DNA of 32,114 nt from Treponema sp. (GTDB taxonomy: Bacteria > Spirochaetota > Spirochaetia > Treponematales > Breznakiellaceae), in contig JAITHD010000026.1 of NCBI GenBank assembly GCA_031280155.1, positions 1 through 32,114 on the forward strand. Reading direction: 5' to 3'. A program made the translations under genes and the position numbers. The notes beneath the pieces were generated by a model. That model searched no databases and was not told where the DNA came from. It was given only the letters and a program-made list of their open reading frames with translations. Positions 162-31,482 of the stretch are shown piece by piece. How positions within the stretch are numbered: position 1 is the stretch's first letter; the number at the start of each line of letters is the position of its first letter.

Positions 162-2411
162 TCATCCGGGATCGGCGTTTATCGGCAGACGGATAATAAA
201 CACCGTGCCTTTCCCTGGTTCGGTCTGTACGTCTATAGACCCAGAGGACTCGCATATCCGATCCTGAACTAGATTTAGCCCAATGCCTCGTCCCGCATGG
301 ATGCCTTCGGTTTCGGCAGTGCTGAAGCCAGGAGAAAACATCGCTTTCAGTAGAATGTCCCGGTTGTCTTCCGCGCCTTTGGGAATAAGATTGAGACCTT
401 CCGCCTTTGCCCGGATTTTGTTAAAATCAATGCCCTGTCCGTCATCGCTCAAACGAATATGAATATCGCCGTCAACCAATTTAATGGAAAGTCTGATGAT
501 TCCAGTCTCATCTTTTCCCGCGGCAGCCCGTTCTTCAGGACTTTCAATACCGTGAACCACTGAATTTCGAATAAGCTGCATGAGAACTTCTTTTATTACC
601 CGCCGAGGACCCTTTTCAAGAGCCTCAACATCAATCTCTTCCGGGACAAACCGCGCTTGTTTCTCCAAATCTGCCGCGACTTTTTCAGCGGTCTTGGATA
701 AGGATTCAAGCAGAATATACTCATACTGATTCCGCCCGTCACCGCCAATCTTAAACGACTTGATCTTATCTATCGTGGTTTTGAAGGTGTCCTTTTCCTG
801 CACGAGTTTTTCAAGGTCTCTCCCTAAATCAGCCATATCCTCAGATGAAACCGGCTCGATTTGAGACCGCAGTTTTTTGATTTTTGACTCAAGTTCATGC
901 ACTTTGCCGCCGAATGTATTAAGCCCTACGGTCACCGCGTTCGATTTTATGGCGTGTACCGACTGATAGAGACCAACCAGCATATCGTCTGGGGACATTT
1001 GGGGATTTTTCAGAATACCCCCAATCTGATCAAACTCATATCCCGCATCTTCAAGAAAATCCCGAAATACCGCCGGATCCACTTGGATAAGTTCAAACAT
1101 AGAACGCATTTCTTCCTGCCGGCGGTTTTCTTCTTCCAAAAGCCGCCGCTGTAATTCTACTTTAGCGGTAATGTCATAGATCGTTACCAGAATGAAAAGC
1201 TCCCCGCGGCTTCGTTCCACTGTGGCGAACCCGCAATGAAATATCTTTTTTGCTCCGGTTTTAATGCTCAAATACTGGAACTCGTCTAGGGGATTAAGGT
1301 CCGCCAGGGTTGAAGGATCAAAAAACCGGTCGAAAATCATAGAAAAATACGCTTGAATCTCGTCAACCTCGTGAGGCGTAAAAGAAGCGGCGAGCATATC
1401 GGGAAACCGCTTGCCCGCCAAGCCGGTTTCGGTCAGTATTTCCTCAAGAAAACGGGAATACTGATCCTGAATAACGTAGTGTTTATCCATGAAAAACAGC
1501 CCGATTTTCAAACTGTCTTTCATAATGGCGATTTCGTTCCGCTCCGCCAAATGGGTCATATCGTGCAGATTGATGAGCCTTCCCTTGGCGTTGCCGGTCA
1601 GTTTGTCCGCCACTACCTTAAAATACCGTTTCTGCCCGTGAAGAGTTACTTCCCAGTCGTCTTCGTAAAACGCGTTCTGCCGCAGCATGGCGCTGATCAG
1701 AAGTTTCATGGTCCGGTCAGGGAACAGATCAATCAGAGGACGTCCTATGGCAAAGTCCGGCTCTCCAATACCCGCAAGCAAGGACAGAGGTTTACTCACA
1801 TAGGTAACCTGGTTCAGCCCATCCACCATAGCGATATAGCTGGGCGTTGTGGAAAGCAGAATTTTGAAGGACTGCTGATCTTGCAGCGCCTTGGTATTCT
1901 TATTTGTGGAAACTCTGGTGAGGATCAGCATAACTATCCCGCTGAAGCAGGAAAGAAGCCATGCAACAATCACAATATGCGCCGGCGTTTCAGGTCCCAT
2001 AATCGGAACCCCTGTCAGGATCATAATACCGACAATGATGTTTTGTCCCAGAATATAGCCCAGTGCGATAGTGAACCTGAGATACAGGCAGCTTAGGGCG
2101 CAGAAACAGAGGCAGGCGATTGGATAATAGGAAAAACGCCATTGGCACAGCCCGGTCAAAGCAGTGGAAAATATGAATAAAATAAGGGGAGTGCAGCAGG
2201 CTAAGTTAGGAAAGGTTTTCGCGGCTTTGGAAACCAGCAGCAACAAGCCTGCCGCAATCACGAGGGACACGCCGGCTAAAACAGCGAGAAAAAGCTCATG
2301 CATCTGTATCAGTTCGTTGACCGAAGCACAGCCCAAAAGCGCAACCCCCGCAAGGGCGCTTATATCAGCGGTTTTATTATATCCTGTACTCTTATTCACC
2401 TTATCCTTCAT
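162..2411 (-). CDS. Membrane sensor histidine kinase with PAS, Hpt and CheA-like ATPase domains
   Basis: A 749-residue protein that probably autophosphorylates a histidine on an Hpt domain, as CheA does, and passes the phosphate to a response regulator. Residues about 17-165 are hydrophobic and make five to six membrane segments. Residues about 180-290 and 300-420 look like two PAS-type sensor domains, followed by a charged coiled stretch (420-440). The Hpt region carries the expected histidine at H486 (SVHAIKSNA). The ATPase has the N box around N616 (RNSVVHG), the G1 box DDGQG at 656-660 and the G2 box GRGIGL at 707-712. The RNSVVHGIE wording is typical of CheA rather than ordinary HisKA kinases, but the CheW-like P5 domain is absent, so it should not sit in a chemoreceptor array in the usual way. 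It is the last gene of the cheY-cheX-lipid kinase operon, 22 bp after the previous stop. The nearby CheY is the obvious candidate partner (inference). Confidence 0.85.
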   Translation of the reverse strand: MKDKVNKSTGYNKTADISALAGVALLGCASVNELIQMHELFLAVLAGVSLVIAAGLLLLVSKAAKTFPNLACCTPLILFIFSTALTGLCQWRFSYYPIACLCFCALSCLYLRFTIALGYILGQNIIVGIMILTGVPIMGPETPAHIVIVAWLLSCFSGIVMLILTRVSTNKNTKALQDQQSFKILLSTTPSYIAMVDGLNQVTYVSKPLSLLAGIGEPDFAIGRPLIDLFPDRTMKLLISAMLRQNAFYEDDWEVTLHGQKRYFKVVADKLTGNAKGRLINLHDMTHLAERNEIAIMKDSLKIGLFFMDKHYVIQDQYSRFLEEILTETGLAGKRFPDMLAASFTPHEVDEIQAYFSMIFDRFFDPSTLADLNPLDEFQYLSIKTGAKKIFHCGFATVERSRGELFILVTIYDITAKVELQRRLLEEENRRQEEMRSMFELIQVDPAVFRDFLEDAGYEFDQIGGILKNPQMSPDDMLVGLYQSVHAIKSNAVTVGLNTFGGKVHELESKIKKLRSQIEPVSSEDMADLGRDLEKLVQEKDTFKTTIDKIKSFKIGGDGRNQYEYILLESLSKTAEKVAADLEKQARFVPEEIDVEALEKGPRRVIKEVLMQLIRNSVVHGIESPEERAAAGKDETGIIRLSIKLVDGDIHIRLSDDGQGIDFNKIRAKAEGLNLIPKGAEDNRDILLKAMFSPGFSTAETEGIHAGRGIGLNLVQDRICESSGSIDVQTEPGKGTVFIIRLPINADPG

Positions 2412-2433
2412 CAGTCTTCCATAACTTTAATTT

Positions 2434-3426
2434 TTATGTTTTAGGTTTTTTGTAGTGTACGCCCTGTACCGCAGCAACTGCCGCGCCGGCCGGAATGATT
2501 TCACAGTCAATATGGGTATCCAGTATAAATTCTCCGTCCATTTGGATCCAAACCGGCTGCTCCGACTGAAGGGTTATTTTTTTCGCCTGCAAAACCACGC
2601 AGTTAGCGGGAATCTTTCCCTGGTTATAAGCGCTCATAGCCCATAACGTAGCGAGAGGTCCGGCTGACTTGAAAAGAGTCACATCCAGCAGTCCATCGTT
2701 GGGCAGCGCATTGAGACCCGCGATTTTGCCGCCCCCATAATACGGACCATTGGCGATAATAACCTGACTGTAAGGTCCGCTGTAATCCTGAGCGTCAATG
2801 GTAATCGCATAGTGCTGGGCAGTAATGGTCCTATCAAAGACCGCTCCCAAGGTACTGAGGAACCTCATAAACTGGTAAAACAGGGAGCCGCTCCGCACTA
2901 CTGCGCCCATTTTCTCATTCAGCGCTTTTGTCCGCACCACCACTGCCGCGGAAAGTCCGGCGGAGCAGACGTTTACCGCATAGTTGATCCCTGCGTCCAT
3001 GATGTCCGTCGGGATTGCGGAAGCCGTAACTATATCCGGTATTTTCTTGAAAGCTTCTATCTTATCAGTCCCAAATGCGCGGATAAAGTCATTGGCGTTT
3101 CCATAGGGAATTGCCGCAAGTTCCGTATTCGGCAGCCCTTTGATACCGTTTAGGCAGTCAAATAACATGCCGTCGCCTCCTACCGCATAGACCCGAAGGA
3201 CTTTTCCTTTTCCGCCGTCGTCAAACTGTTTCTGGATGAGCCCCAGGGCGTCTCTGGGATACCGGGCTATCAGCACGGAAAAATCCGCTTCTTGCTGGGT
3301 TCTGAAATACTGCCCTATACTGTCTATAACCGCGTCCATCTGTAAATTCCCGCGAAACGATCGGGGATTGAATATAAACACATGCTTTATTCTGGGGGGT
3401 TTCCGCTTTTCAATAGTATTGCTCAT
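2434..3426 (-). CDS. Diacylglycerol kinase family lipid kinase
   Basis: About 330 residues of the DAGKc/YegS/DgkB family, which phosphorylate diacylglycerol or a related lipid at the inner membrane face using ATP. The nucleotide-binding motif GGDGM is at residues 83-87, preceded by an opening strand with FNPRS (about 19-23) as in the family. A second conserved stretch is IPYGNANDFIRAFG. I chose the ATG at 3426 because it overlaps the upstream cheX stop as ATGA and has GAAAGGG just before it. A GTG at 3453 would add nine residues but lies deep inside cheX. A lipid kinase between chemotaxis-type genes is unusual. It may adjust membrane lipid signalling, or simply recycle diacylglycerol. The substrate cannot be read from the sequence. 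Confidence 0.85.
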   Translation of the reverse strand: MSNTIEKRKPPRIKHVFIFNPRSFRGNLQMDAVIDSIGQYFRTQQEADFSVLIARYPRDALGLIQKQFDDGGKGKVLRVYAVGGDGMLFDCLNGIKGLPNTELAAIPYGNANDFIRAFGTDKIEAFKKIPDIVTASAIPTDIMDAGINYAVNVCSAGLSAAVVVRTKALNEKMGAVVRSGSLFYQFMRFLSTLGAVFDRTITAQHYAITIDAQDYSGPYSQVIIANGPYYGGGKIAGLNALPNDGLLDVTLFKSAGPLATLWAMSAYNQGKIPANCVVLQAKKITLQSEQPVWIQMDGEFILDTHIDCEIIPAGAAVAAVQGVHYKKPKT

Positions 3427-3899
3427 AGCCCTTTCGCCGTTTCTATTGCCCACAAGAGATGAAAAACCGCGCCGTCAGAAACCGTAAAGGGAATACATAG
3501 CACCTGCACCCGTTTTGCGGACCAGGTAATCGAATGATCCGGTCCTTTGACGACGGTAGGGAGAGAAATCATAATGCGCTCGCCTTCTTGAACTATTCGT
3601 TTGATATTGCCTCCAATAATATTGATGATTTCCCCGACCGCGTCGGTTACGTCTGCGTCCATATCTGTATGAGCGCTTCCAACAATAGTATCGGTCAACT
3701 TGAGGGCTAAATCTTTCTGCATAGCAATAAGCATTGAACCGTTAAATTTTCCGCTTACCCCGATAAGCGCGGAAATATCCCAGGTCATGGTAATCGCCTT
3801 ACTGGAAACAAACGGAACCTGTGGACTGACCTCATGGTTTACAAAGCTTTTAAAGGTTTCGACAGTTACATCTACAAAAGGCTTAACATATTGTTCCAT
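3423..3899 (-). CDS. cheX: CheX-like CheY-phosphate phosphatase
   Basis: 158 residues, the usual size for CheX. CheX and its relatives CheC and FliY dephosphorylate CheY-P through an E-x-x-N pair on a helix. Here E90 and N93 lie in the stretch VGEIINIIGGNIKR, which matches the family helix. The rest alternates strands and helices with no membrane segment. The start codon is 3 bp from the cheY stop, and the stop overlaps the lipid kinase start (ATGA), so the three genes are almost certainly co-translated. Its natural substrate would be the CheY encoded just upstream. The broad CheX/CheC fold also includes non-chemotactic regulators, so a role outside motility is possible given the sensor kinase at the end of the operon. 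Confidence 0.82.
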   Translation of the reverse strand: MEQYVKPFVDVTVETFKSFVNHEVSPQVPFVSSKAITMTWDISALIGVSGKFNGSMLIAMQKDLALKLTDTIVGSAHTDMDADVTDAVGEIINIIGGNIKRIVQEGERIMISLPTVVKGPDHSITWSAKRVQVLCIPFTVSDGAVFHLLWAIETAKGL

Positions 3900-3902
3900 C
3901 GA

Positions 3903-4292
3903 CTATTTTCCGAAGAAAGACAATTTTTGCAGTTTTTCTTTGAATAATTCCGCATTGATCGGTTTTGTGATGTAATCAGAAGCGCCGCTCCGCAATGCTT
4001 CAAGAACATGAAATTTAGTTGATTCACTGGTGACCATAATGACCGGCACATCTTTATATTGATCTATAGCCTTGACCTGTTTCAGGAAATCAATGCCCAG
4101 TAACTTCGGCATATTCCAATCCACCAGCATCAGGTTAATGTGGCACTTCCCCAGATACGCCAGGGCATCTTCCCCGTTATCCGCTTCCAGAAAGCCGCAG
4201 GCAGGACTTATCTCTGTGATAATGCCTTTCAGCTTATTCCGCATAATTCGGGAATCATCTACAAGTAAAACTATTATATCTTCCGCCATCAT
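3903..4292 (-). CDS. Single-domain response regulator (CheY-like)
   Basis: 129 residues comprising a lone receiver domain with no output domain. The acidic pocket is D12 and D13 (VDDS), the phosphoacceptor is D58 (LVDWNMP), the switch threonine is T88 (MVTSES) and the conserved lysine is K110 (ITKP). All canonical residues are intact, so it should be phosphorylatable. Two adjacent ATGs exist (4292 and 4289). AGGAG lies 3 bp before the first and 6 bp before the second, so the second may be the real start. It is first in a four-gene operon with cheX, a lipid kinase and the CheA-like sensor kinase. It could act on the flagellar motor or serve as a diffusible relay between the kinase and another target. 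Confidence 0.9.
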   Translation of the reverse strand: MMAEDIIVLLVDDSRIMRNKLKGIITEISPACGFLEADNGEDALAYLGKCHINLMLVDWNMPKLLGIDFLKQVKAIDQYKDVPVIMVTSESTKFHVLEALRSGASDYITKPINAELFKEKLQKLSFFGK

Positions 4293-9657: not shown

Positions 9658-10828
9658 TCTATTAGAACAAAACGATATTCAAAGCAGTCCTCATAAACCG
9701 TCCCATTCTGCGGGTAATCAGAGGTTTGAAGAACTTGCTGATTCTTTTGAGGAAGCCGTACCTGAGATATCCGATCTGTCCAAACGGGGTTATCAATTTT
9801 TAAAAGAAGAGCGAATAACCGAAGCCATTGATTGTTTTAATACCATTCTTTCAGTGGATGATAATAATAATTACGCCTTGGTCGGTATGGGAGATGCGTC
9901 CCGGAAACGAGGTAATTTCAAGGATGCGGTGAATTATTATCAGATGTGTCTAACCTATCATCCGGGAAATAATTACGCCCTTTTTGGATTGGCTGATTGT
10001 TATAAAGCTCTCAACCAATATCATAAGGCTATCGAGATTTGGGAACAGTATCTCCAGCATGATGAAAAAAATGTCACAGTCCTTACCCGAGTCGCCGATG
10101 CATATCGGAAGATACGGGATTTCAAAAATTCCAAGTCTGTCTATCTTGAAGTTTTAGAAATGGAGTCTTGGAATCCTTACGCCATCATTGGGCTTGGACA
10201 TCTGCATTATGATTTCAAGGAATATCGGGACGCTTTATTCTATTGGGAGAAGATGTTTGAGACCTATAAAGATAACGTGGATATCCGGGTCCTTACGTCC
10301 ATAGGAAACTGTCACCGAAAGCTCAAGACCTTTGAAAAAGGCATCGTCTATTTTGAAAAAGCCCTGCAACGGGATCCGTTTAATTTTTACGCCCTTTTCG
10401 GTTTGGCTGACTGCTACCGAGGCTTGAACCAGCAGAGCCATTCCTTAGAATATTGGAATCGTATTCTCGAACAGGACCCCCGCAATAAGGTTATTCTGAC
10501 AAGAGCCGGCGACGCCTATCGGAATCTTGGGGATTACGAGCAGGCGGTAGACTATTACCAGCGGGCTTTGAACATTGAATTTGATACCTATGCGGTGTTA
10601 GGCTTGGCAATGGTGGCTAAGGCATTGTGCAAGTACACTGAAGCCATTGAATCCCTTCAGCGGCTCGTTCAGCAAGACCCTAAAAATCATAGGCTCTATA
10701 TGGAATTAGCGGATTGTTTTTTTCGGAAAGGCGAAAAACATAAAGCTCAGGAAGTTTTAGAGGAATTCCAGAAACAGGGTATTCGGAATACCTATGTTAT
10801 AGAATTTATTGAAAAGTTCAACTCCTGA
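9650..10828 (+). CDS. Tetratricopeptide repeat protein
   Basis: 392 residues of nearly continuous 34-residue TPRs from about residue 40 to the C-terminus, roughly ten repeats. Typical units include NNYALVGMGDASRKRGNFKD, NNYALFGLADCYKALNQYHK and FNFYALFGLADCYRGLNQQS. TPR arrays are scaffolds for protein-protein contacts. No enzyme domain, signal peptide or membrane segment is visible, so it is expected in the cytoplasm. I chose ATG 9650 because AAGGGG lies nine bases upstream; an ATG at 9629 lies inside the preceding gene and lacks a ribosome site. It overlaps the preceding TPR-like gene by 8 bp and is followed 28 bp later by rlmN. The partner proteins are unknown. Confidence 0.85.
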   Translation: MDDLLEQNDIQSSPHKPSHSAGNQRFEELADSFEEAVPEISDLSKRGYQFLKEERITEAIDCFNTILSVDDNNNYALVGMGDASRKRGNFKDAVNYYQMCLTYHPGNNYALFGLADCYKALNQYHKAIEIWEQYLQHDEKNVTVLTRVADAYRKIRDFKNSKSVYLEVLEMESWNPYAIIGLGHLHYDFKEYRDALFYWEKMFETYKDNVDIRVLTSIGNCHRKLKTFEKGIVYFEKALQRDPFNFYALFGLADCYRGLNQQSHSLEYWNRILEQDPRNKVILTRAGDAYRNLGDYEQAVDYYQRALNIEFDTYAVLGLAMVAKALCKYTEAIESLQRLVQQDPKNHRLYMELADCFFRKGEKHKAQEVLEEFQKQGIRNTYVIEFIEKFNS

Positions 10829-10856
10829 AAAGCGGGAAGAATTTAGGCGGGAAACC

Positions 10857-11894
10857 ATGAAAGAAAAGAGCAAACCCGGACTTTCCGGGTTGTCTTTGGA
10901 GGACCTACAGGACGCGCTGGCTCCGTTGCCGGCGTATCGAGGGCAACAGGTGTTTCAATGGCTCGCTCAAGGGGTTCCCTCTTTTCAGGCTATGACTAAT
11001 CTTCCTATTGCTCTGCGGAAATCTCTGGAGGAAGGGTTTTCGCTTTATTCAAGCAGTATTTCCGCCAAACAGGAAGATTCGGACGGTACGGTAAAGTTAC
11101 AGATAACTCTGGAAGATCAAGAACGGATTGAATCGGTACTTCTGATTGACCGAGAGGGACGGCAGACCGCTTGTCTATCCACCCAGGCAGGGTGTCCCAT
11201 GTCCTGTGTGTTCTGCAAAACTGGAACCCGCGGATTTTCTCGTAACCTGACCGCCGGAGAAATCGTTGAGCAATTCTTTCATCTTCGTTCCTTGAAAGGA
11301 CCTATTTCTAATATTGTCGTCATGGGCATGGGGGAGCCTTTGTTAAATCTTGCGGAACTCCGCAAGGCTCTTAGGATTTTGACGGATCCTGAAGGAACCG
11401 GTCTTTCTAAGCGGCGGATTACCTTATCTACCAGCGGTATTGACTATGGTATTCGGGAATTAGCGGATTTTGGACCTGATTGCAGGCTTGCTCTGTCTCT
11501 CACTACTGGGGATAAGGAGCTTCGGGAAAAACTCATGCCGGTAACCAAGACCAATCCGCTTCCCGCCTTAAAAGAAGCGCTTCTTTATTACCAGCGTAAA
11601 CAGCGGCGGCGCGTCACCTTAGAGGCGGTTTTGATCAGGGGTATCAATACGCGAGAAAAAGATGTGCATACTCTCGCTGATTTTGCTCAAGGGCTTGAGA
11701 CAATGGTAAATCTCATCCCTTGGAATCCAATAGCGGGACTGGTCTTTGAAGGCAAGCCTCTTCAGGAACCGACTAAAGAAGAATTTGAAAGATTTGCGGG
11801 AGAACTTGAAAAAAAAGGTCTCAAAGTTACCCGCCGACTCCGGCGAGGCAAGCGTATTGCCGGGGCTTGCGGGCAGCTAGGGGCGGCGGAATAG
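10857..11894 (+). CDS. rlmN: Radical SAM 23S rRNA (adenine-2503-C2)-methyltransferase RlmN
   Basis: 345 residues, normal for RlmN, which methylates C2 of A2503 in 23S rRNA (and A37 in some tRNAs) through a methyl-cysteine intermediate. The radical SAM cluster is C113, C117 and C120 (GCPMSCVFC). The GEPLLN motif (MGMGEPLLN) and the C-terminal catalytic cysteine C338 (ACGQLG) are present, so it should be active. The accessory N-terminal domain is also there (PLPAYRGQQVFQWL). ATG 10857 is preceded by AGGCGGGA; a TTG at 10809 lies inside the TPR gene. It is third in a TPR-like/TPR/rlmN operon. A second family member lies at 28713-29687. This copy looks like the standard housekeeping enzyme. Confidence 0.88.
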   Translation: MKEKSKPGLSGLSLEDLQDALAPLPAYRGQQVFQWLAQGVPSFQAMTNLPIALRKSLEEGFSLYSSSISAKQEDSDGTVKLQITLEDQERIESVLLIDREGRQTACLSTQAGCPMSCVFCKTGTRGFSRNLTAGEIVEQFFHLRSLKGPISNIVVMGMGEPLLNLAELRKALRILTDPEGTGLSKRRITLSTSGIDYGIRELADFGPDCRLALSLTTGDKELREKLMPVTKTNPLPALKEALLYYQRKQRRRVTLEAVLIRGINTREKDVHTLADFAQGLETMVNLIPWNPIAGLVFEGKPLQEPTKEEFERFAGELEKKGLKVTRRLRRGKRIAGACGQLGAAE

Positions 11895-23757: not shown

Positions 23758-25002
23758 CTATTTTTTTGCTTGTAACAGCGCTATGATCCGCTGCATTTCA
23801 TTATAAACCACCATGAACCCTTCATCAACGCCCATACCGGGTTTGGCGAGGATCTGATCCGGACGAGACGCCATAGCCAGATGGACGCACACTTGGGCAG
23901 ACCTATCGGTTTCGTTACAGGTTCCTCCTTGATAAGCGCCGATGCCTTTTTCTTTGCAGTACAAGACGGATTCTACGATATTACCGATTCCCCCTAAATC
24001 TGGAGTCTTAATCTGTACCATGTGTCCCGCCTTGTTATCGGCGAAATACTTAATGTCCTCCAGGGTGTTGCACCATTCATCGGCTACGATTTCAACCGGA
24101 ATATTCCGCTGGTCCACAAGTTTGGTCAGCGCCGCTAACGCGCTCATCTGTTTTTCCCGATCTTCCACATCCATAGGACCTTCAATCCGCAGTTTGAAAG
24201 GTTTTGCGGCTGCTCCCAAGGAGCTAAGATAATCCGCCATAGCCCCATAATTGTCGTTGCCAAAGACCTGACCAATAGTCCCGTACACATCAATATGCAG
24301 AATCGGGGTATAGGTCTCTTGAAGCCGAAGTTTCCGGATCCGCTGGCTCAACCAAGAAACATATTCCAGCAGCAGTTCTCCCCGCTCTCCCAGCTTAGTC
24401 TTGACATTATTTATCAAACCGTGGGGCAGTACAGCGGCTTCTTTGATGATCATCTTATCTACATTGTCATACCGGGTATCTCCGCTCTGGGTAAAGATAG
24501 GAACTTCCTCGGGTTTCAGTGTAAGCCCATATTCTTCAGCCACTACTTCGCACATGAGCCGATGTTTTGCCTTGGCTGCCCCGTCAAGAATCGCCTGAGA
24601 GACGCCATAGCGGATCGCGGTATGAAGCCGCTTGCCATTGAGCATGATTTCTTCCAGTTCTTTTGCGAGACTGCGGAAACTGTTCAGCTCTTTCCCTACA
24701 AGCCACGGGAAAATATGCTTTTCAATGACCGGAATAAAATCTTTAGCCAGAAAAAGCGGATCCCGCCCGCCTGCGCCGGAATACTGTACTGCCGCGCAGT
24801 CTCCAAAGGCTGTCTGTCCATCTTCCAGAACCAGCATTACCGAAACGGCTTCTCCGGCTTGCCGTACAGCCTGAAAACCGGAAGTTACAGGCTCCCCTGA
24901 ATAACTTGCGCCGTCAGCTTTAGCGCCTTTCTTAATAGCCCGCTGATCGTCAAAAAAGAATCCGGTTCTTCCCGGGGCGCATACTGCTTTAACAATTTTC
25001 AT
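23758..25002 (-). CDS. mal: Methylaspartate ammonia-lyase
   Basis: 414 residues from ATG 25002, next to the 413 of the Clostridium tetanomorphum enzyme. It removes ammonia from (2S,3S)-3-methylaspartate to give mesaconate, in the enolase superfamily. The catalytic bases are H194 (LPHGL) and K332 (VQIKTPD). Metal ligands are D238 (HIDVYG), E274 (RIEGPMD) and D308 (VADEWCN). All match the known enzyme, apart from a one-residue offset after position 238. GGAG lies about six bases before ATG 25002; an ATG at 25014 would add four residues but has no room for a ribosome site after the glmE stop. It directly follows glmE. Confidence 0.96.
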   Translation of the reverse strand: MKIVKAVCAPGRTGFFFDDQRAIKKGAKADGASYSGEPVTSGFQAVRQAGEAVSVMLVLEDGQTAFGDCAAVQYSGAGGRDPLFLAKDFIPVIEKHIFPWLVGKELNSFRSLAKELEEIMLNGKRLHTAIRYGVSQAILDGAAKAKHRLMCEVVAEEYGLTLKPEEVPIFTQSGDTRYDNVDKMIIKEAAVLPHGLINNVKTKLGERGELLLEYVSWLSQRIRKLRLQETYTPILHIDVYGTIGQVFGNDNYGAMADYLSSLGAAAKPFKLRIEGPMDVEDREKQMSALAALTKLVDQRNIPVEIVADEWCNTLEDIKYFADNKAGHMVQIKTPDLGGIGNIVESVLYCKEKGIGAYQGGTCNETDRSAQVCVHLAMASRPDQILAKPGMGVDEGFMVVYNEMQRIIALLQAKK

Positions 25003-25019
25003 ATTTTTCTCCATACATC

Positions 25020-26468
25020 CTAATTGGGTCTTCCTACAAGCCGGCCTTTACTGATGGCGTATACATCATCAATAACCATCTGGAACGAGGGTTCCCGTTT
25101 TTCATGTTTTGCCCGGGACCCCATCTTTTGTTTGTGGAATTCAATTATTTCTCTGGTAAAGGGCAGGGAGCCGGTATCAAAGAAGCGGATCCCCCCCTCG
25201 TTGTCTCTCGCGGGAAGCACCTTGCCGGCGTTGAAACGGCTCGGCGCAAAGGGAACGTCCAATACCCCTGCTTGAAAGGCTCGAACCGCTCCCTTAGCGA
25301 TATCCCCATTGCCCAGTTCAAACACTTTATCCACAATGCACCGAGTCTCAGCCGCGATAATGACCTTTTCATCCATAAGCGAATTCGTATCTACCCGCTG
25401 ATCCCCCAACATAGTGATGATCTGTTTCGTACAGCGCAGTCCCTGAGCATTGGCTTCCATTGTAGGTATGCCCATAGCTTCATGCGGAGTCTTAACGATC
25501 ACCTTAGTAGCATGAGCAAGGGCGGCTACTGTGCTTCCCCAAGAAATCACCCCAAAGGCTTTAGCCTCGTCTTGCGGGAATCCTCCCATCCATTGATGGA
25601 GAACCGTAGTAATCAATACGTCTCCATGTCCCCGTTTCTGAAGGTACTCGTCGGTAAGGCTTTGCAGCGTTTGGAGGGCCGCCACGTCTTGCAGCAAGTT
25701 GCCGCACTGACCGTATCCAACCGTAATATTCCGCACCCCCTGTTCCGCTGCAAGGAGGCTTTCAATAATAGCTACCGCATGAGAGATGCAGGGGGGCATC
25801 AAGGTTCCCGTAAGAGGTCCGAAGGGTTCCCGATTGATAGAAATCCCTGCTTCTTCATAGATTCCGGTAAGCCGATCCACATACTGCCAATCAATAATTG
25901 TTTTGGACAGATCCGCATTCTTTGCGTACGGGATATTATAGGAAATCCCGCCGCCTTCATAGCTGGTAAACCCGCCGGCGTAAGCAATCTCTGTGAGAAG
26001 CCGTGCGTCCGGCGTACCATGCCGCACCTGTACCGGCGTATTCAGGGCATCGATGATTTGACGGCATCCGGCTACGCCGTGATTCACCGCGGGAAACCCG
26101 TTGAGCATGGATTTATTCAGCTTAATCGATTCGGCGATGCCTTCTTCGGCTTTCTGGAAACGGTTTTGCCGGGTATAACTGTCAATAGTAGTGGGAAGCA
26201 GATCCGCCTCGCCTTTATCCTGCAAATATGTGAGGAGTTTGATATGTTCATTTATCAGGGCTACTCCAGCCCGGGGCTGAATCAACGTGGTTTTTGATTC
26301 TTTTGCCTTGAGGAGCTTTTTTGAGAAAATTTTATGCTCCGGAAGGTTTTTGTGATAAGTGAAACTGGCTTCCAGATCCACATCTTTACCGGTGGGCCAC
26401 TGTTCCAGCACGTCTTTACGGATTTTGTAAAATACGTCATCCCTGATGCGTTTATTCTCAAGTTCCAT
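25020..26468 (-). CDS. glmE: Glutamate (methylaspartate) mutase, large subunit E
   Basis: 482 residues, the standard size. With GlmS and adenosylcobalamin it rearranges L-glutamate to 3-methylaspartate by a radical mechanism. The three arginines that grip the substrate in the Clostridium cochlearium enzyme occur at the same numbers: R66 (QPRAGVA), R100 (SYTRQNR) and R149 (VQVRHGT). The TIM-barrel text [12 protein letters not shown] and [20 protein letters not shown] is also typical. The start overlaps the glmL end by 11 bp, with AAGGAG inside glmL about ten bases upstream. All catalytic features seem intact. Confidence 0.96.
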
Positions 26469-27846
26469 ATTTTTGGATCTCCTTCTTCATGATTGATAAC
26501 GCGGCTTTAGGCTGACTTTCCCCAAGCAGCCCCATAGCCGCCAGAATATAAGATTTATCTATATACACTTCCCCGGCAGCGGGACCCAAAGAAGCGGGCT
26601 TTTTCTCGGTATACCGAGCGTAACCCGCGATGTCTCCAGCCCGCTTGTTGTGGATCACCGCGCCGCCGGTGAGAACGAGGCTGGATACCCCTCGAAGGTC
26701 TTTGCCGGTTTGAACAAACACAGGTCCTGTCGGGGTGTATACTTCTTCAATAGTACCGGTATGCCGTTCCATCGCGGTTTCAATCGCCGCCGCGGCCAGC
26801 GCATAATCCAATTTTTCATCTTCCCCAGTTTGGGGCATCTTTTCTGGATGCCCGGTAAGATACGCGATTTTCGCTTCGATTTCTCTAGGGTCTAAACCGG
26901 AAAGCGCCGCAAGCCGTTCTTTGCCTGCTGCTTCAAGTACGCCTCCGGCACTGTACCGCATACCGATATCGCCTTCAACAGTACGCTTAGAAAAAGGCTC
27001 AGGAATTCCCTTGAGAACAACATCTCCTGTTTGGGGCAGCCCGGAGGCTACAGAATATACATCCGTCGTAGCCCCTCCAAGGTCTATTGCCGCCAATTCT
27101 CCGAGGCCTGCTTCCGCCCCAGCCCCTTCTGAAAAAAGCTCTAACCCTTGTTTTACGGCTGATGGAGTAGGCATAAGAATCCCTGAAATTAATTCCTGTT
27201 CCCGGGAAAGTCCCCGGGCATGAATGATCCGTTCCAGAAAAAGCTGGCGGATCTGTTCCTGAGCCGGCTCGATGTTGAGCTTTCCTAACTGGGGAAGCAC
27301 ATTGGCACATCGTATCACCTGCCAGCCTGCAAGGAGCTTCTCGCAGGACCCGGCGGCGGAGCGGTTGCCGGCTATCAGTACCGGAAAAGCTCCTGGGGGG
27401 TTCATAGACCCAAGCATTTTCGCGTTATGCAGGATACATTCTTTATTTCCCCCGTCTACTCCGCCGGTGAGCAAGAAAATATCCGGCTTTAAAGCCTCAA
27501 TCTCAAGGATATCCTCTTCGGTCAGCTCATAAGAATAGAGTCCCACTACCTTAGCGCCAGCCCCAAGCGCCGTAAGCCGGGCGGCTTCGGCGGTGAGGGC
27601 TGGAACCAGACCGCTGGCAACCATCCGCAGTCCTCCGGCAGCGCTGGAACACGCAAAGCGTTTACTGAATGAAAGGGGTCCGGTATCTTTTTGCAGTAAG
27701 TCCAAGGCTTCCGCCAGACCTTCGCCGATATCGGTTTCTACTGTGGTAAACGCAGCGGCTGTTCCTAAGAGCCGTTCTTCCGCAACATCAACTGCGGTAA
27801 CTTTTGTATTGGTACTGCCAAAATCAATCAATAAGACTGCTTCCAT
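26458..27846 (-). CDS. glmL: Glutamate mutase accessory protein GlmL (MutL)
   Basis: 462 residues of the actin/Hsp70-type (ASKHA) ATPase superfamily. The phosphate-1 motif is [14 protein letters not shown] at the N-terminus, and [16 protein letters not shown] is the phosphate-2 motif. GlmL lies between the two mutase subunit genes in clostridia, as here, and is thought to reactivate or protect the B12 enzyme after inactivation, as diol-dehydratase reactivases do. It is not needed for catalysis itself. It begins 17 bp after glmS and overlaps glmE. LTGG motifs ([26 protein letters not shown]) fit the fold. Confidence 0.93.
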
Positions 27847-27863
27847 CCCTGCCGTCCTGGACC

Positions 27864-28277
27864 CTACTGGATATGGAGGTCTTCCCGCAGCGCTTCGATA
27901 GCCGTTTCAGGAGGCGTACCGGGACCAAAGACCCGATCAAACCCCATGTCTTTGAAGCGCTTTTCCACTTCCTCGAAATCCTGCTTTCCTACTACGATAT
28001 TCCCTCCTACATACAAGAGTATCCCTTTGAGTCCTGCCTCGTCGCATTTCTCCCGAAAGCCCCGGCAATCCAGTTCGCCGTGACCATAGAGAGACGATAC
28101 CAGAATCGCGTCCGCCGCGGCTTCGATAGCCGCTTCAATATATTCTTCCTGAGAAACCATAACTCCCAGATTGGTCACCTCAAACCCCGCCGCGGTAAAG
28201 GCGTGGTAGAGGATCTTGTTTCCTACCGCATGAACATCAGCGCCGATAACGCCGATGACCAGCTTTTTCTTCTCCAT
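27864..28277 (-). CDS. glmS: Glutamate (methylaspartate) mutase, B12-binding small subunit S
   Basis: 137 residues, the entire cobalamin-binding fold. The DxHxxG motif is D14-V-H16-A-V-G19 and H16 would replace dimethylbenzimidazole as the lower cobalt ligand. The SLYGHGE and [11 protein letters not shown] segments make the rest of the nucleotide-tail pocket. It pairs with GlmE to form the active site. It is first in the operon, with the promoter 60 bp upstream. It is not the unrelated glucosamine-6-phosphate synthase that shares the symbol. I see no B12 riboswitch: the leader is only about 54 nt. Confidence 0.95.
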
Positions 28278-28693: not shown

Positions 28694-28762
28694 ATGTCTT
28701 TGGAGGTTAATTATGAAAAACATATCTGGGAATATCTCTTCAATTATAGACCTTATCAATGA
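28694..28762 (+). CDS. Possible 22-codon leader peptide overlapping the second methylase start
   Basis: ATG 28694 has AGAGG four to five bases upstream and opens a 22-codon frame beginning MSLEVNYEKH and ending in TGA at 28760-28762. It overlaps the first 50 bases of the methylase gene in another frame. It could be a chance frame. If translated, it would compete with or modulate the methylase start, much as leader peptides control some rRNA methylase genes. Confidence 0.25.
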   Translation: MSLEVNYEKHIWEYLFNYRPYQ

Positions 28763-29687
28763 TCCCTTTGGATTTTCTTATGACGAAATCAGTCCGATTC
28801 TTGGTGAAGATGATGCCAAAGCATTATACGTCCGGCTGTATAGAGGCGGACTGCTGAAAAAACCCCATACAATCTGGGTGCAGAATATAATAAGCGCAAC
28901 AGATGCCAAAAAATATCTGTTTGAACTATCTGACGGCAAACGGATAGAAACAGTTTGTATAAAACGGAAAACCGGCGTAACCGCCTGCGTCAGCGCCCAA
29001 GTGGGCTGTCCGGTACAATGTATTTTCTGTGCCTCCGGCAGACCCGGACATATACGGAATTTAACGGCTTCTGAAATAGTCCAGCAGATTATATTTCTGC
29101 GGGAACCAATAAACAGAATCGTTTTTATGGGCATAGGAGAGCCGTTATATAATTACGATTCCGTGCTGAAGTCGATTCATATCTTGCGGGACCGGAACGG
29201 ATTGGACTTTCCCACCGATGGAATAACCGTTTCAACAGTGGGACCAATAAAACTTTTAAAACAGCTGCGGGAAGAACACCTGAAAATTCAGTTGACTTTA
29301 TCTCTGCACGCCGCAACCCAAGAGGTTAGGAATTATCTTATTCCCGGGATGAAGGGGAATGATATTAATCAAACCGTTGAAGCCGCGCTGGACTATTCAA
29401 GACGGCACAATCGAAAGCTGACGGTTGCGTACTTGGTGCTGCCGGGGATAAACAACGCATATACAGATGCCCGGCAATTAGCCGCATGGTTTGCCCAGGA
29501 AAAGGTCATGATAAATCTATTGGAATACAACCCAACCCCTCAAAGTACGCTTAAAAAACCCGCTAAACAGGAGATTGAAAGGTTTAAAAACCATCTGGAA
29601 CGTTTGGGGCTTGAAACCCATATACGGGTATCTCATGGAAACGCGATACAAGCGGCTTGCGGGCAATTAGCCGGGGCGATCCGGTAG
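28713..29687 (+). CDS. Second RlmN/Cfr-family radical SAM rRNA methyltransferase
   Basis: 324 residues, slightly shorter than RlmN (345 here) or Cfr (about 349). The radical SAM cysteines are C99, C103 and C106 (GCPVQCIFC), the MGIGEPLYN motif follows, and the C-terminal catalytic cysteine is C316 (QAACGQLAG), so the methyl-cysteine chemistry should be possible. The N-terminal accessory domain is reduced. The stretch THIRVSHGNAIQAACGQ is closer in feel to the Cfr-type tail than the first copy's RRGKRIAGACGQ. It may methylate A2503 at C2 or C8, or another RNA. RlmN and Cfr cannot be told apart by eye. GGAGG lies six bases before the ATG, and the gene has its own promoter. Confidence 0.82.
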   Translation: MKNISGNISSIIDLINDPFGFSYDEISPILGEDDAKALYVRLYRGGLLKKPHTIWVQNIISATDAKKYLFELSDGKRIETVCIKRKTGVTACVSAQVGCPVQCIFCASGRPGHIRNLTASEIVQQIIFLREPINRIVFMGIGEPLYNYDSVLKSIHILRDRNGLDFPTDGITVSTVGPIKLLKQLREEHLKIQLTLSLHAATQEVRNYLIPGMKGNDINQTVEAALDYSRRHNRKLTVAYLVLPGINNAYTDARQLAAWFAQEKVMINLLEYNPTPQSTLKKPAKQEIERFKNHLERLGLETHIRVSHGNAIQAACGQLAGAIR

Positions 29688-29976: not shown

Positions 29977-31482
29977 ATGAAAACCGTATTTTTTCTCGGT
30001 TTTGCGCTGCTGTGTCTGGGAAGCCTCCAAGCCCAGCAAGCTCAAGCCTTAGACGATGTTATCGCCGAATCCGCTAAAGCGGTAGAAGTGAAATTGACTT
30101 CCGGGTCAAAACTGGCGGTACTGAACTTTTCCTCTGGTTCTGATGTTTTCTCGGATTATGTGATTGAAGAGTTGTCCGGGGTTCTGGTGATGAGCGGGAA
30201 GGTTACGATTGTTGAACGCCGTAGTCTTGATCTTGTCCGTAAGGAAATGGATTTGCAACTCTCTGGAGAAGTGAGCGACGATTCAGCCCAAGCCATTGGG
30301 AAGCAGTTGGGCGCTCAGGCGATTGTATCCGGCTCGCTTACCAATATGGGCAGCGTCTATCGGTTCAGGATTAAGGTAATCAATGTGGAAACCGCCCGTA
30401 TTGAAGCCCAAGTTTCCTATAATCTCCGCAACGACGAACAGGTCGCATTTCTCCTGCACGGGAATCAGCAGAGCGCCCCGCCGGTTGCGTCTGGGACCAA
30501 ACCTGCATCTGCGGAGACTGCCTCTGCCGCCCCGCCCAGTCCGTCTCCATCGCCGGCAGCGTCAACGCCGGCGGCTGTCCCGTCGTCCGCTGTTGAAGCC
30601 CCGGCGCCCGTTCCGTCCAGTACGCCTGCCAGTCCGGGTCTCTATGCGGGCAGTACCTATCAGGGACCCATGAACCTTTATGACGCTCTGGACTGGATCG
30701 CGCTGAACGCCCAGAACAACAGCGTCTATACCATTGTTCTGGGAAGCGATCAAGCCGCCTCAAATATCCGTCTTGATTACAGTACCAAGCGGGTAACTGT
30801 AACGCTTAAAGCATCTGGAGGAGAACGCAAGATACGGTTTGATACTAATAGCCCCTCGTACGCCCTCTTTACAGTTTATCCCGGAGCTACCTTTATCATG
30901 GAAGACGGGGTGTCTCTGACCGGACTAAGCAAAGACAGCGCACCCCTTGTCCGTGTAGAGGGCGGTGCCTTTATTATGAACGGCGGCGCTCTGAGAGATA
31001 ATAAATGCAGTGCATCGAGGTCCGGCGGCGGGGTGTATGTGAACGGCGGTACATTTACCATGACCAGTGGTACTATCAGCGGAAACGCCGCCGGCTATGG
31101 CGGCGGGGTGTATGTGGACAGCGGTACATTTACTATGAACGGCGGTACTATCAGCGGAAACACCGCCTCCCATAGCTATGGCGGTGGGGTGTATGTGAAT
31201 GGCGGTACATTTACCATGAACAACGGTACTATCAGCGGAAACGCCGCCTCCCACTACTATGGAGGCGGCGTGTATGTGGACAGGGGGACATTTATCAAAT
31301 CCAATAAAGGCGGCATCATCTACGGTTCTAACGCGCCGGAAGGACAAGCAAACAAAGCAAGGTCAAGAGGACACGCTGTTTATTGTTACCTTGGTGGTAG
31401 AAGTAGAATACGCGACACCACTGCCCGGGTAACGACGGCTCTGGATTCCAGTAAAAACGGCGCTGATGGGGGCTGGGAATAG
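29977..31482 (+). CDS. Exported CsgG-like/beta-helix repeat protein
   Basis: 501 residues. A signal peptide (MKTVFFLGFALLCLGSLQA, likely cut after A19) is followed by a CsgG/FlgT-like domain (about 40-160; KLAVLNFSSGSDVFSDYVIE, VERRSLDLVRKEMDLQLSGE), then a Pro/Ala/Ser linker (about 165-222). A beta-rich segment (225-345) leads to four GGGVYV-GTFTM-GTISGN repeats of about 26 residues (350-450), which should fold as a right-handed beta-helix like the Chlamydia polymorphic membrane protein repeats. The tail reads GHAVYCYLGG...LDSSKNGADGGWE. The protein is expected in the periplasm or on the cell surface. AAGGAG precedes the ATG. The next gene repeats its signal peptide and beta region. Confidence 0.85.
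   Translation: MKTVFFLGFALLCLGSLQAQQAQALDDVIAESAKAVEVKLTSGSKLAVLNFSSGSDVFSDYVIEELSGVLVMSGKVTIVERRSLDLVRKEMDLQLSGEVSDDSAQAIGKQLGAQAIVSGSLTNMGSVYRFRIKVINVETARIEAQVSYNLRNDEQVAFLLHGNQQSAPPVASGTKPASAETASAAPPSPSPSPAASTPAAVPSSAVEAPAPVPSSTPASPGLYAGSTYQGPMNLYDALDWIALNAQNNSVYTIVLGSDQAASNIRLDYSTKRVTVTLKASGGERKIRFDTNSPSYALFTVYPGATFIMEDGVSLTGLSKDSAPLVRVEGGAFIMNGGALRDNKCSASRSGGGVYVNGGTFTMTSGTISGNAAGYGGGVYVDSGTFTMNGGTISGNTASHSYGGGVYVNGGTFTMNNGTISGNAASHYYGGGVYVDRGTFIKSNKGGIIYGSNAPEGQANKARSRGHAVYCYLGGRSRIRDTTARVTTALDSSKNGADGGWE
31024..31320 (+). repeat. Tandem 75-81 bp coding repeats
   Basis: Units start at 31024 (75 bp), 31099 (81 bp), 31180 (81 bp) and 31261 (degenerate, about 60 bp). Each begins with a GGCGGCGGGGTGTATGTG-like block and includes ACTATCAGCGGAAAC. 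They encode the GGGVYV/GTISGN beta-helix turns. The ACTATCAGCGGAAAC word recurs near 32056 in the next gene. Confidence 0.9.

Follow-up and report, generated by a model that had tools for sequence, protein, structure and literature searches.

In bacteria, soluble lipid kinases are familiar as enzymes of metabolism, and DgkB, YegS and BmrU are stand-alone enzymes. In chemotaxis, a core made of dimerisation, HATPase_c and CheW domains is common to all the CheA proteins analysed, according to PMC10542144. The stretch of DNA studied here (the window) comprises 32,114 nucleotides of a Treponema sp. genome of the family Breznakiellaceae (assembly GCA_031280155.1, contig JAITHD010000026.1, positions 1 to 32,114) and carries, on the minus strand, a four-gene operon in the order cheY-cheX-lipid kinase (DAGK)-membrane kinase. 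The DAGK and the sensor half of the membrane kinase turned out to be a recurrent pair: 120 of 139 distinct DAGKs (those identical over the last 250 residues were counted once) adjoin such a sensor kinase within 400 bp, 115 with the kinase downstream and 5 with the kinase upstream. On balance, we lean towards regarding the operon as a mosaic, in which a DAGK and six-helix/PAS sensory module is joined to a phosphorelay module and works via a feedback loop. The features of the operon are as follows.

3903..4292, minus strand: cheY, 129 aa, single-domain receiver (PF00072, E 1.8e-25, 89.7 bits)
3423..3899, minus strand: cheX, 158 aa, CheY-P phosphatase family (PF13690, E 6.1e-23, 81.1 bits against a cut-off of 27)
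2434..3426, minus strand: DAGK (DAGK_cat and YegS_C), 330 aa from ATG (PF00781, E 1.9e-13; YegS_C, E 8.4e-14)
162..2411, minus strand: membrane kinase, 749 aa, with a six-helix region, PAS, a middle region without domain assignment, Hpt and HATPase_c
1878..2411, minus strand: membrane part of the sensor, residues 1-178, six predicted helices, MASE-like (AlphaFold2 mean pLDDT 83)
1545..1859, minus strand: PAS of the sensor, residues 185-289 (PF00989, E 0.0037, below the Pfam cut-off; PAS folds matched)
1544..1545, minus strand: approximate module join, at ca. residue 289/290, where sequence matches switch partners
798..1067, minus strand: Hpt, residues 449-538, with H486 in HAIKS (PF01627, E 6.7e-5, 23.5 bits against a cut-off of 24.6)
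180..593, minus strand: HATPase_c, CheA-like (PF02518, E 3.9e-15), with the protein ending 5 residues later

The initial annotation had described four genes coupled by gaps of 3 to 22 bp or an ATGA overlap, and the coordinates, together with the Pfam and NCBIfam matches, support each part of this description: 3 bp separate cheY from cheX, cheX and the DAGK gene overlap by ATGA, and 22 bp lie between the DAGK and kinase genes. An alternative DAGK start, GTG at 3453, was given by the open reading frame (ORF) prediction. H486 and D58 are also where they had been placed, in the HAIKS stretch of the kinase and in CheY, respectively. CheY carries D12/D13, D58 and ITKP, which we take to be the acidic pair, the phospho-acceptor Asp and the Lys of a receiver, and its 14 best matches (58 to 62% identical) all come from operons of the same type. 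By domain score, the cheX product is a member of the CheX phosphatase family, and its ExxN pattern is presumably the catalytic motif. Promoter and terminator scans gave no useful signal, with 5 sites each where shuffled sequences averaged 7.5 and 6.3.

As for the kinase, its domain content includes the Hpt of a CheA and lacks the CheW part of the CheA core. The claim that this is not a standard array was borne out, with no CheW match in the Pfam scan, the protein ending 5 residues past HATPase_c, and partial matches to NCBIfam CheA models far below the cut-offs. The same scan found no HisKA or REC match. All 25 operons of this type, the window's included, have an H..K[SGA] pattern. Residues 1-178 had no Pfam match. 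In structure searches with the sensor, PAS folds appeared in nearly all rows, and the one membrane-fold match was ImcA, a diguanylate cyclase (8wcn; VIA-align Z 15.0, root-mean-square deviation 2.9, 168 residues), a score to be read against the ca. 14 reached by unrelated helical models. No kinship with MASE6 was seen: there is no PF20966 match, and six cassette sensors of MASE6 type (two of which were Pfam-scanned) gave an hhalign probability of 0.6%.

The pair formed by the DAGK and the sensor is widespread in the host family. Of its 195 genomes searched, 104 have a match to the sensor profile and 103 one to the DAGK profile; at 118 of the 136 DAGK places listed, the sensor is the next gene downstream on the same strand, 115 of them within 261 bp. 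Four lone DAGKs have a sensor ca. 4 kb off on the other side. Two single-contig genomes of the family (L152 and L173, presumably the ZAS strains) also carry a pair. From 107 further pair regions, 80 were taken (the first 40 by rank and 40 chosen by hand). The type of kinase varies: counting partners up to 3 kb away for the 95 DAGK ORFs in the fetched loci, 64 go with a HisKA kinase, 25 with an Hpt-HATPase kinase as in the window, 2 with a cut kinase and 4 with none. Those DAGK-linked kinases that were Pfam-scanned are HisKA-HATPase-REC hybrids, often with Hpt in addition. Thus, the link between a lipid kinase and phosphorelay signalling proposed in the initial annotation is real and wider than this operon, given the adjacency above and the receiver fusions found in three phyla (see below), but it is not specific to che genes, the sensor half being the constant partner in both the HisKA and the less common che type.

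Within the Hpt-HATPase type, cheY and cheX stand directly before the DAGK in 25 of 25 loci, window included, and because of this the four-gene arrangement is not due to chance. A first view, that the order was peculiar to the window, was overturned by the 24 more loci of the family-wide search. These 25 DAGKs form one clade (SH-aLRT 98, quick tree), and therefore the two modules were probably joined once; both of our DAGK trees were quick ones, with less trustworthy support marks, and took in DAGKs of at least 250 aa. The DAGKs studied here are a clade separate from six other DAGKs of the group (outgroup). The DAGK nearest to that of the window is 47% identical and has a broken GGDG motif (locus L219), and locus L230 has two Hpt-HATPase kinases in a row. 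Upstream of the 139 DAGKs, the neighbour is CheX in 25 cases, REC in 19, histidine kinase-receiver (HK-REC) in 11, a sensor kinase in 6, another DAGK in 3 and some other protein in 51, with nothing near in 24; six of eight scanned "other" proteins were HAMP proteins with a weak Hpt match below the cut-off. Several loci deserve a mention of their own. In L032 (5162-16001, one strand), the DAGK-sensor pair comes after genes for a CheA-like protein, CheW-CheR, CheX, a REC-HD protein and a HAMP protein, and a REC-HD gene also precedes the pair in L029. A DAGK gene of the same group in L026 (1915-2955) is broken by a stop codon and has no adjacent sensor.

The other half of the kinase belongs to a module that exists on its own. 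When 39 related genomes were searched separately with the DAGK and with the kinase, two different sets of loci were retrieved. For the C-terminal part of the kinase (from ca. residue 290), the 15 best matches outside the window are 46 to 54% identical, 14 of them with cheY and cheX and one (L082) beside cheY only; two of the 15 lie in tandem elsewhere in the genome that holds the window. In 20 loci around che-type kinase matches (several of which are contig fragments), the kinase profile was found in 20, cheX in 15 and DAGK in none. Three of these DAGK-less cassette kinases were scanned, giving two MASE6 sensors (25.4 and 26.8 bits against a cut-off of 27.4) and one dCache. Residues 1-289, on the other hand, gave 90 blastp matches in DAGK-holding loci and none in the 20 DAGK-less ones, although one of the latter, L088, has two sensor-type matches by profile. 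The kinase thus matches DAGK-linked kinases on the N-terminal side of the join and che-cassette kinases on the C-terminal side. In the window's genome, L072 (5795-10520) has one cheY-cheX followed by two tandem che-type kinases, the first with dCache; such doubling was also seen in L076 and L080.

The window protein is, as far as sequence and predicted structure go, a YegS/DgkB-type lipid-kinase fold with intact catalytic motifs and a predicted activity. DAGK_cat (50.5 bits) and YegS_C (52.1 bits) are above their cut-offs, while TIGR00147 (107.9) is below its own (118.65). The AlphaFold2 model (pLDDT 94.8) resembles BmrU, YegS, DgkB and SphK1 (Foldseek E down to 2.7e-23), and since all four match, the fold does not tell which lipid is preferred. 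GGDG (D85), NDF (D113) and DGE (E299) are all intact. In PMC7864038, D97 of Staphylococcus aureus, an active-site Asp in the third nucleotide-binding motif, has a role with Mg/ATP. We take the NDF Asp to correspond to it, and the residues of GGDG and DGE are likewise taken to be catalytic. Motifs are readable in 91 DAGKs of the host family, of which 47 have an intact GGDG, 49 the Asp of NDF and 76 the Glu of DGE, with all three in 34 (and in 12 of the 25 operons of the window type); 4 of the 139 DAGK rows have no letters at a motif column. All of the 44 GGDG-broken copies in this set still adjoin a sensor kinase, and the GGDG state changes at least six times on the tree (45 of 136 are broken in the tree set and 44 of 135 in the motif table, because a few incomplete rows are not common to both). 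Lipid phosphorylation therefore appears to be optional for the family, with an active site that often decays while the partner stays. As to the cross-talk with membrane lipid state suggested in the initial annotation, enzymatic control of lipids is not the common denominator of these loci.

Five DAGKs are fused behind a receiver, in L188, L194 and L197 (Treponema, one genus), L301 (Ruminococcus) and L310 (Fibrimonadales), i.e., in Spirochaetota, Bacillota and Fibrobacterota. HK-REC-DAGK proteins occur in metagenome-assembled genomes (MAGs) of the three groups, while L197 has a REC-DAGK without the kinase part; the other domains seen with them are dCache (L289, same contig as L188), 7TMR-DISM (L301) and SBP_bac_3 (L310). 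Each fusion is then followed by a six-helix/PAS sensor kinase gene. The phospho-acceptor Asp is retained in four of the five receivers. The three Treponema DAGKs have GGEG, and those of L301 and L310 have GGDG, L301 being without a DGE match. A 1292-aa frame in L266 was rejected as a sixth candidate, since Pfam sees only the terminal DAGK and it is probably a long open frame. Among the papers listed by searches of open-licence literature, no title or abstract start described a DAGK-sensor kinase pair or a REC-DAGK fusion.

The pair also co-varies. For 72 pairs (81 before thinning at 80% identity), distances between DAGKs correlate with those of the transmembrane (TM) part (r 0.75) and PAS (0.80) of the sensor better than with HisKA (0.51), HATPase (0.47) or REC (0.17), and the gap between sensor and kinase core never closed in 500 bootstraps.

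In the reading that fits these data best, the DAGK is a component devoted to signalling, which belongs with the sensor, is linked to receivers and can do without lipid phosphorylation; the recurrence of the pair, often with a worn-out active site, suggests that the sensor uses the lipid-kinase fold for its own working, beyond any metabolic role. On this reading, the DAGK and the six-helix/PAS kinase half are inherited together as a transferable unit and plugged into differing phosphorelay modules, in the window into cheY, cheX and the CheW-less Hpt-HATPase kinase half. Gene order, domains, the exchange of modules, the clade, the fusions and the loss of motifs in copies that stay paired are observed directly; the mechanism that follows is inferred. 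The DAGK-fold protein would bind a lipid on the inner side of the membrane and, in the window, probably phosphorylate it as well. The lipid, or the DAGK itself by direct binding, would set the state of the sensor, which in turn would control autophosphorylation of H486; the phosphate would pass to D58 of CheY and be removed by CheX. The phosphorylated receiver, here CheY, may then act back on the DAGK. The receiver-DAGK fusions indicate that receivers and DAGK work together, making a loop likely, and the unit is probably of this feedback kind.

Alternatively, the DAGK could be the output: a receiver (CheY here) would switch the lipid kinase, and the phosphorelay would tune membrane lipids or make a lipid second messenger. 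We consider this possible, with a clearly smaller chance. The HK-REC-DAGK proteins of three groups and the REC-DAGK of L197, the Asp kept in most fused receivers, the CheX, REC and HK-REC genes just upstream of 25, 19 and 11 of the 139 DAGKs and the intact motifs of the window DAGK all fit it. It is at odds with the 44 of 91 family DAGKs that have lost GGDG and retained the gene pair, and with the fusions themselves, where the three Treponema DAGKs have GGEG, the L188 receiver has Asn for Asp, and L301 has no DGE match.

It seems improbable that the DAGK is a metabolic lipid kinase with nothing but the operon in common with its neighbours. DAGK_cat proteins are common enough (13 of 14 control genomes), and the window's genome has a second DAGK (contig C8) with no kinase match nearby. 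However, a housekeeping enzyme would hardly account for adjacency in either gene order, receiver fusions, the pairing of every GGDG-broken copy or a clade apart from the six outgroup DAGKs. Equally hard to credit, or slightly more so, is the idea that the operon is chemotaxis in reduced form, acting on the flagellar motor, with an incidental DAGK. It would explain the cheY and cheX homologues and a kinase half 53% identical to the nearest DAGK-less cassette, but the operon has neither a CheW domain nor a receptor gene, the input being a built-in membrane sensor, and on contig C39 the window's genome has a CheA-like gene, a gene of 449 aa and cheX in a run of their own. The gene at the position of the 449-aa one is CheW-CheR in L032.

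Returning to the mosaic with a feedback loop, several observations weigh against it. Eighteen of the 139 DAGKs (three of them fragments) have no sensor within 400 bp, and 25 of the 142 sensor places, the strongest of at least 150 listed, have no paired DAGK; the DAGK-linked loci were mostly picked for holding a DAGK, so sensor matches elsewhere are under-sampled. Fusions are just 5 of 139, three from one genus, with the L188 receiver altered at its phospho-acceptor. All three motifs are kept by 34 of the 91 family DAGKs, and as the window DAGK is one of these, catalysis may matter here. For the 49 pairs of the family alone, the contrast in co-variation is weaker (TM 0.80, PAS 0.84, HisKA 0.61, HATPase 0.66, REC 0.44), with 3 of 500 bootstraps in which no gap was left. 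Moreover, co-variation declines with distance along the DNA, so that linkage alone could produce it, and since DNA distance predicts much the same trend, we take it as support, not proof, of contact between DAGK and sensor. Finally, the operon is absent from five of five congeneric MAGs (62 to 79% complete), in which neither such a DAGK nor the sensor was found. Absence in close relatives had been named in the initial annotation as speaking against its proposal, and formally this is what these incomplete genomes give. The five do carry che cassettes; their kinases do not match the window sensor and therefore look like paralogues. The absence may be compatible with loss, missing contigs or transfer.

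Beyond the family, the sensor was found in 6 of 296 evenly drawn Spirochaetota genomes, five of them from the host family, the window's included. A DAGK scan of one genome per species (84,980 species) gave 190 relatives of GGDG-intact DAGKs; GGDG-broken ones are missed because the search pattern contained GGDG, and what follows rests on the best 80 of the 190. Among the non-spirochaete carriers are MAGs with the NCBI labels Bacillota, Myxococcota (named Deltaproteobacteria), Pseudomonadota (Azoarcus), Synergistota and Fibrobacterota. Their DAGKs interleave with those of spirochaetes on the tree, which points to transfer between phyla. The five loci with reversed order, sensor kinase before DAGK, are four from Deltaproteobacteria and one from Treponema. 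Searches of plasmid and phage collections (tblastn) with the membrane part of the sensor gave no match, so no spread on either was seen. In a Deltaproteobacteria MAG, L276 (941-4615) has three tandem DAGK genes and no sensor match in the locus. As to habitat, 21 of the best 80 loci carry sample codes (eight) tied to termites in PMC11707648, and three more carry Lab288, a code that, by a literature search, occurs in termite papers; the remaining loci have in common with these the sample naming style alone. According to PMC13067680, most termite-gut spirochaetes are placed in Breznakiellaceae. As a tentative extension, the lipid-kinase fold might be a standard two-component part in termite-gut bacteria, either a receiver-controlled kinase or, if decayed, a lipid-reading adaptor setting the sensor kinase, with the unit passed between phyla in the gut. 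If so, this would amount to shared lipid-based community sensing and to a first branch of two-component signalling devoted to a lipid messenger. In any case, gene order, receiver fusion and sensor exchange tie one lipid kinase branch to phosphorelays in six phyla (NCBI labels). If our reading is right, lipid kinases and pseudo-lipid-kinases join the two-component parts, and bacterial lipid phosphates become directly testable as regulated signals.

Elsewhere in the window, 23758-28277 (minus strand) codes for the methylaspartate route of glutamate fermentation; both mutase subunits (S and E), methylaspartate ammonia-lyase and GlmL score above NCBIfam cut-offs. There are two RlmN-family radical SAM methyltransferases (10809-11894 and 28713-29687, both plus strand), the latter with 249 bits, below the RlmN cut-off of 290 and far below those of Cfr. 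The protein at 29977-31482 (plus strand) has repeated glycine-rich TSGTISGN-type stretches by eye and is possibly a surface protein.

Compared with known systems, the operon resembles CheA-CheY-CheX chemotaxis in CheY, CheX and an Hpt with CheA-like HATPase, and differs from it in having no CheW (P5) domain, a sensor inside the kinase and no receptor gene. The DAGK-less cheY-cheX-[MASE6 or dCache]-Hpt-HATPase cassettes of the family, also present in the window's genome (L072), are like it in cheY, cheX and the kinase half (up to 54% identical), and have another sensor and no DAGK. The hybrid histidine kinases (HisKA-HATPase-REC-Hpt) with which 64 of the 95 DAGK ORFs pair have the same sensor joined to a HisKA kinase, whereas the window kinase has no HisKA or REC match. 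With ImcA, a MASE-type sensor, the six-helix membrane domain may be alike, at 16% identity, in fold only. As for DgkB, YegS and BmrU (PF00781 and PF19279), the fold (by sequence and predicted structure) and the GGDG, NDF and DGE motifs are in common; unlike them, the DAGK clade adjoins or is fused to two-component proteins and has lost GGDG in nearly half (44 of 91) of its family members.

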